From: Fennellomyces sp. T-0311
Lineage: Eukaryota > Mucoromycota > Mucoromycetes > Mucorales > Lichtheimiaceae
Assembly: GCA_025266875.1 (NCBI GenBank)
Contig: JALLLT010000002.1
Coordinates: 558,001 to 622,000, forward strand
Length of the DNA: 64,000 nt
Direction of reading: 5' to 3'
Made by a program: the position numbers and the translations under genes. Below the pieces are notes generated by a model. It searched no databases. It worked only from the letters and a program-made list of their open reading frames with translations, and had not been told where the DNA came from. Positions 2,651-56,135 of the stretch are shown in pieces; position 1 is the first letter of the stretch; every line of letters begins with the position of its first letter.

Positions 2651-3429
2651 GACTAGTCACTAATTCTATTAATACATAAGCTTCTAAGCGTCAGTACATG
2701 CTACTCTCATACATTTAACGGTCAGCACAATTTTGCAATGCTCGATGACACAGAAGTAAGTGGCTGAGACTTTCGGCATAATTTGTTTACAAATATCTCA
2801 GTAAAGGTAGGTTCAAATCTGTAATGGATATAATAAAAGCCTATCGAAGATCGTATCCCAATAACTGTACACGGATGAATTCAAGCTATACATATACTTT
2901 TATGTTTGTATCTGTGGTCGAATCTGAGATCTAGCCAGATCATATACTGAAGTATCGCATAAACGTTCAAAAGCATACTACACAACATGCTCTCGATGGC
3001 TTAGAGGCATCCATCCACCTTCAACTTCAAGGATATTCTTATTTCAGGGGGTAAACTCTCACAGGAGTGTTGCCAAGAATTCAGTCATATACCGCATTGA
3101 ACATTCCGCTGTTCTTGGTTACTTTACTTCATGTGGTGAAACAACCACAGATGATAATAATAGAAAATATTTCCTATCGGATAACACATATCGGTTCAAC
3201 ATAATCACGAAGTGTACTTACATAGTAACTTGTCTACACGGATTAAGGATTACACCGTATGCACGAATGGGATAAACTGAACAGGACATATAATTGACTC
3301 CAATATAGCAATGCGGTCATTACACTACAGAACGGATGTCAAAGACATCCTCAGATTCGCACAATCAAAACAAAGGAAAGGATCCTATACCTCCTCTATC
3401 CATTCAGGCAATTCTGAAGAAGAGTCACT

Positions 3430-3560
3430 ATCTAAACTGCCATCGCTGATTCAATACACAAAAAAGATATAAAAGCATAGAGCGTTGCATTCAATAAAGC
3501 ATATCCGAAACTTCAAAGATACTTTTATAAGTCTCTTTTCATTCTTTGTACCGTTGATTC
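3430..3560 (+). repeat. Local direct repeat, copy B
   Basis: Partner of the copy at 2515-2650. The roughly 75-base core is about 85 percent identical by eye. The 780 bases between the copies hold no recognisable gene, so this may be a remnant of an element with direct terminal repeats or a local duplication. Confidence 0.7.
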
Positions 3561-3937
3561 ATCTCACTTCACATACGTGTTGAGAGTCCAAAACAATATA
3601 GAATGATAAATCGATCATCTGACATATGGATTACAACAGATAAATAGATCACTATGTGTGTTGTGCAACTTTAAGGTAGTGCATACTACAATGCGCCGCC
3701 TACTTGTTACATCCGCGTGCATCGAATTACAGCAGTTTGGGCAGTGTAGACGCGTATTATAAAATTAATGCTTTATTCACATCTAAATATTTCTCAGCCT
3801 TTTTTACTTTTCGTACTCGACTCTCTACAGCTTCATTGCTGCAATACCAAAAACATACATGACTATATCGTTATTTGAGAGCTTTGGTAAGATGTTGACA
3901 CCCTCTATGCTGCTATAAGAAATTGCTAACCTAATAC

Positions 3938-48131: not shown

Positions 48132-48531
48132 AGTACCCCTCAGCGGCGCACTGAAACAATTACAAATCACTATGAATACACTAGAATTTACAACAATCAA
48201 AAGCACACTCACGGCAGAGCTTTCTCCTATCCTCGTCTGGGAAGAAAAGCCTTGTTATTTATTCTTTTGATCAAGTTTGCTTTTTAAAGTACACAGTGTT
48301 GTACAATCGTACGGTCATACGAGGAAACTAGTGCTATAATTAATGAGGAGGGAATGCTGTGTGAATTCACCATAAGAGTTTGATACAGTAGACTTCAGTC
48401 ATCCTTGATTTTTACTATAGGCTTCACTCCCGCACCAACACTATACTATACATATTCTCTTGGAAGGAAATAATGGCCCGGGTACCATGTATGGGGGAGG
48501 AGAATTAATTATGAAGGATTTTGGGGATTAA

Positions 48532-48563
48532 TTTCGCCTGAGCGCCAAGGCGCTCAGGCGAAA
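48532..48563. repeat. Perfect hairpin with 15-bp stem and 2-base loop
   Basis: TTTCGCCTGAGCGCC, then AA, then the exact reverse complement GGCGCTCAGGCGAAA. It is GC-rich inside an AT-rich spacer and lies 48 bases beyond the stop codon of the exonuclease-transposase gene (stop at 48611). It may mark an element end, a structured 3' UTR, or an old palindromic insertion footprint. Confidence 0.9.
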
Positions 48564-48610
48564 AATGTGTAATAGCTGTAGCATTATCAGTTTTTGACGT
48601 GCGGGGAGAT

Positions 48611-51600
48611 TTATTTTAGACAAGCTTTTGACCCTTTGTAACGGCCTGGACAACTAATTGTATCGCCGCATTTGGTGCATTTCCGCGGCTTCCGACCGCT
48701 CTTTGCGCCTGCAGAGAAGACAGATACATGGTGGTTACTACCACTAGACATCGACGCACATGCTTTGTTCTCGCTACTGGTACTAGCAGCATGCTCTAAG
48801 TACTGAGGCATTGGTGGCGGCATTGGTGGCGGCGAGTAGAAATCTTGTGCAGTAGTAGAAATACTATTCTCGACCAAGGGCAGACCAGGAGCGAGCGGGC
48901 GATAACACCGTGAGCGAGGTTGCAAAACTGCGGATTGACTGGTACTAATGATTTGCTCAAGAGGCACATTCAGTCCTAATGGTGGTGGAGAAGGAGCAGG
49001 AGGAGGAATCGGCAGCAAGAACGGCTGAGGTACTTGTTCACACACTGCTTGCACGTCTCTGCATGGTTCTCGTAGACGATTTTTCAAGTTGATCCAAGCA
49101 GCAAGGTTATTTGTGATCGTATTTACTGCATTGCGTTCCTTGGACCAATCGTTGAAATATACTTGAATGTTCTCAGGCGTTTTGTAGAATATCTGCCTAC
49201 CGTCTGCCTCCTTCGACCATAACCTTGCAAACAAGTCCCAATCTGGTTGACGCCCCTTTTTGACGAACTGTTCATTCAGAATCCGGGAAAAAAGTTGACG
49301 TTCTGGATCGGTATGAACTGGTACTATTGCATATTTGGCATCTTGTCGACGTGCCAAGTATTCTAGATGAGCCCCAGCTCGCGTATGAATTGCAGCTGGC
49401 AGTACGTGATGAGGAACTTGCCACTCATTCCAGGGAACGGTAATACGGTTGCTAACCGCGACTTGTTGATGATATGGCTCGTGAGCAAAGCTATCGGCAA
49501 TATCTCGTGGCAAGGGACAGATACCAAAAAACTCGTTCGACGACTCATATTCAAGAGCATTTGGAGTTACACCTGGGTAATCAAAGTTAGATGGCAGGCC
49601 AAGTGTAAGTCGCAAGCGATGAATGTGCTGGGATATCCAGGGGTCATAATGACCTTGATGAATGCGCCCATATCTGTTGACACTTCCAACCTATATATCA
49701 TCACACATGCGCAGTAAGTAACCTTCAATATATGAAAAACCATCAAGCCTCTAAAATGAACTTACATCGGTGTTGTGGCGCAGCCTATAGTCAGTAAGCA
49801 CATTCTGGATTAGATGTGGAGATGCGCCAAAGGATCCGAGACGTCGAATAAGGTTTTGATGGACACCACCTTCGATTGAATTGGTGCCTCGGCTACAGCG
49901 ATATAGAGGAAGACTGTTTTTATCCCTACCAATCTTGAAGTAGAATGATGCGCCGGGCGGATCAGATACATGACCGTCTTTAATGGCCTTTAACACATTT
50001 TTTGCTTGCTTCTCAGCAGCAGCATCAAAGAGTGGCAGTTGGCTTTTAGCACATTTAAGAGGACCGCAGGCGTTGAACAGGTCTTCGATAATTGGGTATA
50101 GTTTTTCTGGTGGTGGGATTACTCGCTTCACTCTTTTGAAAATCCAACTAGGATTTTTTGCCAGCATTTGCTTCCAAGAGGTGCCGTTGGACTCCAAGAA
50201 TTCTTCCACGCGCTTTCGATCATCTTCGTCATAAACGAAAAGGGCATCACGATACCGTCTGAAGAATTCAGCGTGGAGACCATGACGCTTCGACACTTTG
50301 ATTTGATCCATAAGATGGAACGCGTCTTTAAGAACCCTCGTTTGCAATACATCTTCTGTAGGCTCGTCGGTGTTATTGCCATCATTGCCTGCAGAGGCTG
50401 AACTGAAGGTTGCACTCGAAACATGGGTGGACGAAGGCAATGGTGTTTCGAGGTCAATCGTGTTTGCGGTACGTAGTTGAGACTTTTTGACAACAGCGGT
50501 AAACCGTGTTGGACCAAAGGCACTCAAAGACTTTTCGTGCAGGTCCAAGATGTATCCAGGGATGGTAACGTTAGTTACCCTAATCGCAATTCGCTGAGTG
50601 CCGGTTGGCTTTGCTTTTTCAATAGCCGTTTTTTGGTCGTTTATAATGGTGCCATAAGCTACCACTTTTTTACCAACCGGATCGCGAAGGGAGATAGGAG
50701 TGCCTGGTTCTAGTGGTCCTCGTATCGTTAATCCCGCCGGTCGAATGTGCTTCAGCTTTTCATGAATGGCAAGCGAGACCCACGCGTCCAACGCCGCATA
50801 CGCCACTTGCTCTTCTTTTAGGTTGCCATCCCAGTTACTGCACCGAACATCGCTTTCTTTGGCAAGATGAAACTCGAGGACAGTCGCTGTGATATCCGCT
50901 AGGCTCATCGCTGCATTGGTTATTCGGCCTCGGTCTTTGCAGAAAGTGCCCAATTCGACCGATCCACGACATTCAACCCCGAAGTCCTTCTTTATCTTCC
51001 GAAAATCGTTGTCGACGCGCACACCAATTTTGAATACGGAATCGCTACACAGAAACGAAGCTAGAGAAGACGGTATGGCGCGTAGCTTTGCGAGATGGAA
51101 AATATAAACGACATTGTCAACGGCAATTTGGACAACGGCAACTTTTCCGGCCTGTCTACCAGTAAAGGTCCATTCGCAATCGAAACCAACAGTAAAAAGT
51201 CTTTCTTTTTCAGCTCGCTCGAGTAGAAGGTTGCATGCAAGATCGATTTCTGTTGCTGTGCTGTAAACATTAACTTGCACGTGGTCTGGCAATCGAAGGC
51301 GTTCCAAGGTCGATTCTGAGGTAGGCTTCACGTTCTCTGACAATGACGGTAGGACATTCATGAGGAAGCGTTGATCTCCACGTACATTGTCGGTAAAGAA
51401 GTATTTTGGGGGTTGATGGCCGTACAGCTCATATGCTCGGCGCATCGCCTCGAACGATGGCTTCAAGCGAGACAGTGCCTTGGTAGGTGTCAATAGCTGG
51501 AGACGGATCTCACCATATTCGTTGCATAAAGTATACAATGCTGTGAACGGTGTACTGCCTCCAGTCTGTGCCATGGGCTTGACAATCTTGTGGGAGTGAT

Positions 51601-53295
51601 CGCCTTTCAATACTTCTCCATCAAGCATCATTGTCAACAAGTCAATCAACGGTCGAATATGGTCCATCAACGCGTTGTAGACTCCTCTGAGGTAGCTAGC
51701 AGAAGGTAAGTATCCGGCATAACCTTGCTTGTCAGAAAAGCTGGAGAAATTTGGTATGGATATTGACTGAAAATGCTGTAAGACCGACGGCATGGGTTTG
51801 CAACGTTCATAGACTGCGTTCAGATACTGAAGTTCAAGTCGTGCATGCTTTAGCCGGTGTAGTTCGCGCAGGATTTTGGCAAATCGTTTTGGACCAACAG
51901 ATCAGCAAGCTCCACTGACACAGCACTGCGATGGGTAAGATGCGCAGGGAATTCAGCCAAAAGTTCAGGTGGTAATTGTCGCAGGATTTCTTCGTCATGT
52001 CCATTCCAGCTCTTTTGTTTTTTCTCGCTGAAGCCACCATATCGCTTGTTGCGACAAACATAGCGCATTGACATTAGGTAAAACGAACTAAATTGACATT
52101 AGATAACGTAACGATTGGTATTACGAATAAAAGTACCTGGTGAGATCGATGACACGACGCGCATATGGAGTTTTGTTGCATCCTTTTGTACGCAGATTGG
52201 CTTTACATTCTGGGCAACTAAGACGCTTGTGGATCAAAATATGCGGCATCCATAGGAACACCCGAGGAAGGTAGCAAGTCGTTGGATGCAGTTTCTTTTT
52301 GAGTGCGAAAAAGGGCATTGAAGGTAGGATCCAGAAATTGCATTTTTATACACTTCCAGGTATTCCTGTTCGCGTAGATCCGCTTGGATTTGGGATAGGT
52401 ATTTGGATATAGGGCTGTCTTTCGGTGCAGCATCTGGGCTGGCACTGACATCTTCGTCTTCGTCTTCTTCATTCTCCTCGTCACTTTCCCCATAATTATC
52501 TTCGACCATTCTGCATCGTAAACATCATTACGAACATCGTCTGGTCCCTGTGGCTGCGCATCCATTCGACGTCAGCATCCAACTCTTCACTCTCGACAGC
52601 TTCGCAGAATTATGCTCCTCGATATCAGACAACCGTATTATCTCAAATTAGATATTCATCCTTACGTCTTCGTCAATATTAGCCTCTTCCCCGACATTTG
52701 GTTTGTCTTCTGAGTTTACAGACCCCATATCCTCATCCGCAGTCTCCTAAAAATATTGCAAGTTTAGCACCTGTACTTTATTTTAGACAAATTCAATTCA
52801 AAGGCTTACCCAAGAATCACTCTCGTTCTCAGAATTTTCGTTTACTGCACTTGCAAACTCACCATCTACAATATCCATCTCGTTTGCGGTCTCCAGTGGC
52901 GCCTGGTTGTGCTCTGATTCCTGAAGTGCTTATACAACGCAACAATTATATAAGCGACTCGTCCTTTAGCTCGACAAGCGATATCCTTACATGATCATTA
53001 CTATTGCCAGTATTTTGCTCAACATCCATTAATTCGTCATCGCTCTCAGTCTGTGTATCATCATGAATAGTCTAAAGATTTTTAAATTAGTAAACTCACA
53101 GTAGTGCTGCGTGTTGTCTTTACAGTCTGACCAGTGTCAATAAATGCCTCCTGCTGATTATGCCGCAAGAAAAAAATTATCCACCCGCTCTTGTTTGCCT
53201 GACTTTATCGCTTTCGAAATCTTCGATGGTCGGCCAACATGAACAGCTGTTTTCTTGTTCTTTGTTTCTAGAGGTCGCCCTCGACGTTTGCCCAT
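48611..53295 (-). CDS. Transposase-like protein with inserted DEDDy 3'-5' exonuclease and Cys-rich N-terminal domain
   Basis: The gene can be followed from ATG 53295: MGKRRGRPLETKNKKTAVHV, VGRPSKI (two AT-hook-like motifs), several acidic exons (for example VNSEDKPNVGEEANIDED), then a Cys domain (FFALKKKLHPTTCYLPRVFL, WMPHILIHKRLSCPECKANL, GCNKTPYARRVIDL, SMRYVCRNKRYG). I relate this to the fungal DUF6729 group. The core is a 680-codon exon (51793-49766). D65 (LKGDHSHKIVK) and D135 (YFFTDNVRGD) come first, then a WRN-type exonuclease with D205/E207 (VGFDCEWTF), D263 (RVDNDFRKI) and Y332/D336 (YAALDAW), and then E641 (RGTNSIEGGVHQNL). After the 49691-49765 intron the protein ends in a Cys motif (RKCTKCGDTISCPGRYKG). 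Two lesions break the N-terminal half: an apparent 1-base loss in an A run at about 52345 and a frame change near 51900. It is either a mobile element product or a decaying or mis-assembled copy. Confidence 0.75.
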
Positions 53296-54683
53296 ATTGG
53301 ATACGATTGGTGAAGAAAAAAACCTGTCAGGAACACAGCATCTATATATAATCCGACTTTTATATGCCGATGCGCCGCTTCAAGTGAGTGAACATAATAA
53401 TGCCGACTCGGACAAAAAAGGATCATGACCCATCCGTATATCCAGTATAAAGCAGAGCGTACTAAAGTAACCGAAACAATATAACAGAACAAAAGCAGGT
53501 ACATTAAATGAGGTATACAAAGCATCCGGCAATACAATGCCAATGAAACCGGCGCCGGAGGAGGCATTGCAAGCTACATCAATCGTCCCAGGAAGCCGTA
53601 CATAATTTTGTGGAATCCAGAGTGTTCATAACACTTCCCTTCTTCGTTTCGGCTTTTCCACCTGCACTGTTCTCTGTGTATGTTTTTTTCTTTCCTTCGT
53701 TCATCTTCCATATCAACCTGCCTTTTTTCACCTTCTGGGTTTTTTTTCAGGCACGGTCTCTGTACATCTATGTCTCTATCTTAAACCTAGTACCGCAAGG
53801 AAGGGACCATATACCTATAGGAGTCGGTCTAATACCTTCCACATTAAATATATAACTTTTCAACTACAGTGCCAATGACACAATAGCCAAAACAAGGTAG
53901 CAAAAAAAGCCACGGTCAACTCACACATCCAGCATGAAGCAGGATATGGGAGTTGGCCGTGGCCTCAGCAAAAAATTAAGTCAATGTATCGATGCATATG
54001 CACGTCAAGTGAGATTCAGTTTCGGTAATGACAAGCACAACCTGAAAATGTAAGCTGTATAGTCGCTATATAAAGCACAAGGGCTATGTACAATCATTGT
54101 TCGAGAAAATCCGCAAGACATAGCTTCTATAGACACCATCAAGCAATAGGATCGATAAAAGACTTGTCAAAGTCAAATCTTGTAACGTTAGAACACAACC
54201 AGTAGGAGCAAAGTGCTATGCATAGTTTTTTTTTTATATTCTCGTGCTTCACTTTACATTTTCGCTGCCGTTTATTACATCAAAATAAAAAAGTACATCA
54301 GCTGTTTTACAACTACAATGTGGTCGGCAAATCTACATACAGAATCTAAAAATTGTTTTTTACATCTTCAAGCGTATACTACTATAACTGTACCCTGTGG
54401 CTGAATCAATAAAAAAAACTGGTAGCATTCATTCGAAAAATCAAATATATGACCAATGTTACATGAGTCGGGGCACCGACTTCTTGTACCTTTTTACTTT
54501 TTTTTAATTTATAAATATTTCTACAAAGTTCAGCCAAACAAGAGTAAGCGAGTAAAGAGAACAGTTTAAGACGGAATAGTTTCATGGTCTACGTAAAGGG
54601 TAATCGACAAGAAAGAATTTTTCATGGGAGCGTGTGTGTGAGGTGGTGAGAAAGATGATGCTAAAGAGGTTCTTTTTTTTGTT
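53296..54683. other. AT-rich spacer of about 1.4 kb
   Basis: Upstream flank of the exonuclease-transposase gene and 3' flank of the GMD gene. T-rich tracts occur at 53680-53760 and 54220-54240. Frames on both strands are short and unfamiliar. I saw no counterpart of the 48532 hairpin here. Confidence 0.45.

Positions 54684-56135
<1,452 letters not shown>

Follow-up and report, generated by a model that had tools for sequence, protein, structure and literature searches.

We suggest that the window analysed here, a stretch of 64,000 nucleotides from Fennellomyces sp. T-0311 (Mucorales, Lichtheimiaceae), carries a fungal DNA transposon in a decayed state that very probably comes from an exonuclease-bearing branch related to Dada, and for which a mechanism can be proposed. 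Its transposase combines a DUF6729 domain with a CCCC motif, a DDE core of RNase H-like type and a DxxH motif of the kind described in the enzymes of hAT, P, Kolobok, MuDR and IS256.

The remnant occupies approximately 48475..54220 on the minus strand, with an intact 3' end and an absent 5' terminus. The 3' terminus (48475..48499, minus strand) ends in ...GGTACCCGGGCC, and the border ...CCCGGGCC is common to the window, the copy on contig C163 and distant copies, the flanks diverging beyond it. On the 5' side, the likeness of the window to the C163 and C104 copies ends at 54217-54220, while these two copies remain alike for ~50 bp beyond the counterpart of that point. The span given in the original prediction, 48611..53295, does contain the gene parts but falls short of the element. 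Past the stop codon, and still ahead of the 3' terminus, the element holds a perfect palindrome with 15-bp arms and 2 bases between them (48532-48563), which is also present in the C163 copy. Just past the 5' side there is a 279-aa frame (54769-55608, minus strand), which by eye reads like a GDP-mannose 4,6-dehydratase.

All coding parts lie on the minus strand. The N-terminal start, as read in frame (53173..53295), has two GRP motifs, which we take to be AT-hook-like; both this start at 53295 and the Cys motif of the last exon had been anticipated. The DUF6729 (PF20499) zinc-binding N-terminal domain (51794..52336) is divided into two exons by an intron at ~52088-52136, proposed from its GT..AG borders and the homologous reading frame, and its frame is broken at ~51.92 kb. 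There follows the 680-codon frame of the ORF list (49751..51793), which holds the two halves of the DDE core and the inserted exonuclease, with D65, D135, D205, E207, D263, Y332, D336 and E641 at the positions first claimed for them. Residues 57-152 (51338..51625; fold matches of model m5a7ca57a2d1b) are the N-terminal half of the RNase H-like core, with D65 and D135, and residues 172-351 (50741..51280) are the WRN-type DEDDy 3'-5' exonuclease (D205, E207, D263, Y332, D336). A small beta-rich domain, recognised from secondary structure, forms residues 360-450 within the insertion (50444..50716), and residues 487-651 comprise the DxxH strand (D490, H493), a helical insert and the E641 helix (49841..50335). 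GT..AG borders and continuity with P0005 and P0006 suggest an intron at 49691..49765 that separates the main exon from the last; the latter (48611..49690) carries a terminal Cys knuckle (C-x2-C-x5-C-x9-C) and appears in the ORF list as a C-terminal ORF of 334 aa (48611-49615).

The window copy is decayed. Compared with the C163 copy, it has lost ~25 bases near 51.92 kb, and because of this loss DUF6729 is out of frame with the 680-codon frame; the main exon as originally predicted is a real frame, but the coding part does not naturally begin where this frame does. Near 53.17 kb the first frame runs into a stop, owing either to an intron or to a break. A ~320-bp, MITE-like, high-copy repeat (53547..53866) has also inserted upstream within the element; it matches many loci of the genome independently of the element (query positions 735-1054) and is missing from the C163 copy (C163:42372 to 42387). 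The C163 copy is itself interrupted by ~11 kb (G000:C163:43957-54940), flanked at its junctions by a duplication of 9 bases and probably representing a second mobile element nested in the first.

With regard to the zinc domains, the DUF6729 region of the window was recognised as a tblastn match with P0002 from residue 92, and PF20499 exceeds its cut-off at G000:C95:610124-610342. The N-terminal CCCC motif is covered by 29 of 40 homologues, with Cys present in 28, 29, 29 and 21 of them at the four successive positions; the fourth Cys is absent from the window copy. The C-terminal Cys knuckle, in which C replaces H, is found in the window and in three genomic copies (L009, L012 and L027), the other loci being unmatched by the pattern used. 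Within the genome, DUF6729 matches best (66.7/65.7 bits) to an open 397-aa frame on C161 (G000:C161:1211209-1212402; positions 2710-3903, minus strand, of locus L047), which we had considered as an exonuclease-free sister copy and rejected as a DUF6729-only frame; no transposase or exonuclease was found within the 4.3 kb fetched, and this frame is possibly a host gene derived from the zinc domain of the transposon.

Searching the 45.6-Mb genome of Fennellomyces sp. T-0311 with the 680-residue protein returned at least 92 matching segments at a minimum of 48 loci on 37 contigs, all of these being lower bounds. Some copies are nearly identical (L018/L019 at 99.2–99.6%, L011/L013 at 99.0%, L012/L027 at 98.3%), and pairwise comparison of copies revealed sharp borders. 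Twenty copies were fetched, and 19 were scanned for exact duplications flanking a pair of GGC...GCC ends, the C163 copy (L009) being left out as it is split by its insertion; five other end triplets served as controls. An 8-bp duplication was present at 8/19 loci (L012, L013, L014, L015, L016, L020, L027 and L028), compared with 1, 0, 0, 0 and 0 loci for the control triplets, while duplications of 7 bp (1/19) and 6 bp (5/19) stayed inside the control ranges (0–4 and 3–8, respectively) and those of 9 or 10 bp occurred at none of the 19. The remaining 11 loci gave no exact 8-bp match, perhaps because of truncation, decay or the proximity of a contig end. L016 yielded two end pairs, of which 1818/7673 was kept and 1379/8377 dropped, because the 3' end of the former fits the shared terminus.

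The eight elements with a duplication are 4755–5856 bp long and have imperfect terminal inverted repeats, 14–22 of the 25 terminal bases matching. Their eight joined empty sites contained no tRNA according to ARAGORN and no shared sequence, with a mean identity of 27 per 100 in fixed register, and neither the window nor the 20 whole loci contained a small RNA gene detectable by ARAGORN or Rfam. The family is mobile and inserts with 8-bp duplications at unrelated sites, the joined sites having been screened for tRNA and compared with one another. Both copy number and duplicated borders bear out the original prediction of a mobile system.

Protein searches 2 and 3 gave 157 matches at E ≤0.001 and 192 at E ≤0.01. 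Among the matches listed (120 of 157 and 120 of 192), all homologues named by organism were fungal, mostly from mushrooms and their allies, plus Phenoliferia, with Mucor and Fennellomyces appearing in the first search. Relatives beyond fungi may exist, since the search needs shared words, and one exonuclease-bearing relative outside fungi has been described in Ectocarpus (PMC3706591). In viral contigs, examined with one pattern, 0/15 pattern matches were confirmed. A BFVD search returned exonuclease matches; a Yasminevirus protein aligned over 651 columns in that search was not counted (TM 0.23, rmsd 28.3). Muszewska et al. 2017 is cited in PMC8290104 as a source of fungal Dada profiles, and we found no literature on DUF6729, on Dada in Mucoromycota or on transposons of Fennellomyces.

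Judged by its protein, the window family belongs with the exonuclease-bearing branch formerly placed in Dada. As defined by Kojima and Jurka in 2013, Dada elements encode a DDE transposase with DxxH, an N-terminal CCCC and a C-terminal CCHC zinc motif, generate 6–7-bp duplications and insert into small RNA genes in all families with clearly definable termini (PMC3706591). In Dada-1_LB and Dada-2_LB of Laccaria bicolor and Dada-1_ES of Ectocarpus, a DEDDy exonuclease follows the second D and precedes DxxH; processing of cleaved 3' ends was proposed as its role (PMC3706591); the idea of an exonuclease inserted in a DDE transposase, reached anew in the original prediction, was thus already published in 2013. 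These three elements resemble the window family in the position of the exonuclease, the N-terminal CCCC, the introns and the DDE core. Their ends are not described in the available text of PMC3706591, whereas the eight Fennellomyces copies provide ends, 8-bp duplications, imperfect inverted repeats and no fixed target. Dada-U6, Dada-U1 and Dada-t of animals and Perkinsus, which target tRNA, snRNA or 5S genes, share the DDE core with DxxH and the zinc motifs with the window family, and the D-D distance is 68 in Dada-U6_DR versus 70; they differ from it in their 6–7-bp duplications and small RNA targets, and the descriptions available mention no exonuclease in these families. A later paper on fish Dada again gives 6 or 7 bp, and the word exonuclease is absent from its main text (PMC8869645).

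An alternative classification would be a plain Dada transposon, with the differences in duplication and target being variation within one superfamily. DxxH, the N-terminal CCCC, the introns and the exonuclease position are all common to Dada, and the C-terminal knuckle of some copies may correspond to its CCHC motif. The L. bicolor proteins P0080, P0105 and P0122 are homologous to the window protein, and the contig carrying P0080 has a length (3,566,367 bases) that would allow it to be the one with Dada-1_LB. At the same time, the duplications are of 8 bp and not of 6–7 bp, the termini themselves form imperfect inverted repeats, which Dada-U6 and Dada-U1 lack, carrying sub-terminal repeats instead (PMC3706591), and small RNA genes are missing from the whole loci and tRNA from the joined empty sites. 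We regard a plain Dada as a serious possibility, somewhat below an even chance. Relatives in better condition depart from the published traits of Dada in their ends and in how they insert, and because of the 8-bp duplications, the imperfect terminal inverted repeats and the lack of a fixed target we do not class the element outright as Dada. As to whether an obligatory active exonuclease, together with short inverted repeats, duplications of 8 bp and insertion without a target, marks a lineage of its own, apart from target-specific Dada, we are evenly divided.

Comparison with other superfamilies points to partial likenesses. MuDR/MULE elements have target duplications of 9–11 bp and so differ from the window family with its 8 bp. 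The RNase H-like core of ISCth4, a bacterial element of the IS256 family, was matched by the window protein over residues 55-153, and we know of no exonuclease insertion in ISCth4. In hAT and P transposases the RNase H core is likewise interrupted by an inserted domain, which is helical or GTP-binding and not a nuclease. Pfam scans of the window protein and of 40 homologues (E 0.1) gave no hAT or P domain, the hAT family domains being BED and hATC, although such profile absence is weak evidence. Both superfamilies resemble the window family in their ~8-bp duplications and the C/DxxH motif (PMC3706591). KolobokD is likewise a DDE transposon with a DnaQ-type exonuclease thought to act on 3' ends during transposition; however, that nuclease is DEDDh, TREX/ERI1-like, and belongs to the Kolobok superfamily, its insertion within the core being unstated in the available text (PMC9587614).

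The predicted DEDDy exonuclease is present in the window protein: Pfam places DNA_pol_A_exo1 at residues 192-348 of the 680-aa frame (E 2.1e-16), and the corresponding part of the 680-residue model resembles WRN in a PDB structure search. The exonuclease profile was found in 40/40 scanned homologues (a chosen set, mostly long), and the exonuclease region was matched in 20/20 fetched loci when read with P0002. The exonuclease belongs to the transposon family. It may be asked if it is a mere structural spacer or DNA-binding module whose enzymatic function has been lost, as P0005 has K at E207 and C at Y332, P0037 and P0069 have G at D205, and E207 is replaced by K or N in 3/20 genomic copies. 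Such a loss is improbable given the conservation in our homologue alignment of 69 sequences (the window plus 68 of 133 proteins, mostly the longer ones, counting only sequences with a residue at the site), where D205 is retained in 66/68, E207 in 67/68, D263 in 68/68, Y332 in 66/67 and D336 in 67/67. Among the 20 genomic copies, D205, D263, Y332 and D336 are each kept in 20/20 and E207 in 17/20.

The insertion consists of the exonuclease and the beta-rich domain, placed between the second Asp and DxxH, with the helical insert and the Glu following. The beta-rich domain varies far more from copy to copy than do the core pieces and has no Pfam match at E values up to 10. Candidates for exonuclease-free sisters on C111, C151 and, in one copy, C130 all matched the exonuclease when read with P0002. 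A further candidate at C1:209.3-213.7 kb keeps both gene ends and has no core match beyond residue 56 and no exonuclease match; it was rejected as a sister since it looks like a derivative that has suffered an internal deletion. It is one of a group of related sites at G000:C1:184-298 kb that match the two ends of the element.

In the DDE core, D65 and D135 are separated by 70 residues, D135 and D490 by 355, and D490 and E641 by 151. In the homologue alignment D65 is conserved in 64/64, D135 in 66/67, DxxH in 56/56 and E641 in 50/50 sequences; the 20 genomic copies have D65 in 20/20, D135 in 18/20, the Asp and His of DxxH in 18/19 and 19/19, respectively, and E641 in 18/18. On the sequences compared, such retention of D65, D135 and E641 is not a matter of chance. 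In a PDB search with the 680-residue model, the best 50 matches in each of two lists were all exonucleases, so residues 1-165 were modelled alone. By structure comparison, residues 55-153 match integrase and ISCth4 cores, and the range starts of these fold matches would align D65 with the first catalytic Asp. From its conservation, its spacing and the secondary structure predicted around it, E641 would share the fold of D65 and D135. Removing ~330 residues (exonuclease and beta-rich domain) yields the spacing of zebrafish Dada-U6 (D567, D635 and E811, i.e. D-D 68 and D-E 176; PMC3706591), although this is arithmetic and not an alignment.

It could be argued that D65, D135 and E641 do not make up a DDE triad, the parts flanking the exonuclease being of another nature. 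A Pfam scan of the window protein itself gave no transposase domain, and its weak CagS and CheX matches were treated as chance; the MULE profile matches only 1/13 core pieces of this genome, and weakly (E 0.16); and the sequence profiles of both core pieces retrieved no transposase from the PDB, the weak matches (best ARF1, E 0.013) being taken as unrelated proteins. We consider this very unlikely in view of the fold matches that span residues 57-152 and the presumed register of D65, the MULE transposase matches in 10/40 homologues (E ≤0.1, best 5.1e-5), and the invariance of the residues together with their Dada-U6-like spacing. The fold and the conservation of both active sites support, as predicted, a DDE transposase whose second Asp and Glu are set apart by an inserted exonuclease.

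A host exonuclease or a domesticated repair or defence protein, which the original prediction had left open and which the WRN-like domain and the database name 3'-5' exonuclease of many homologues might suggest, is hardly credible and unsupported for a family that is multi-copy, has near-identical copies and element ends with target duplications, and whose window copy is broken.

For an exonuclease-bearing DDE transposon, the following course of transposition can be proposed from related enzymes. The zinc domains would bind the GGC...GCC ends, and the DDE core would cut and join with an 8-bp stagger. The exonuclease may trim the 3' strand kept in the same complex, acting, with about equal probability either way, on the donor flank or a 3' overhang and not into the element. 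Random trimming of the 3' ends of the element is unlikely because ends and duplications are exact in the eight defined copies. The role of the exonuclease is the weakest step of this mechanism.

In the window family one nuclease is nested within another that shares its broad fold, and both active sites are retained. Since some copies have defined ends, the part proposed for the exonuclease in transposition can be tested. Our results suggest that the exonuclease architecture is separated from the small-RNA-gene targeting typical of Dada, and that many fungal proteins named '3'-5' exonuclease' or 'DUF6729 domain-containing' in databases are transposases.
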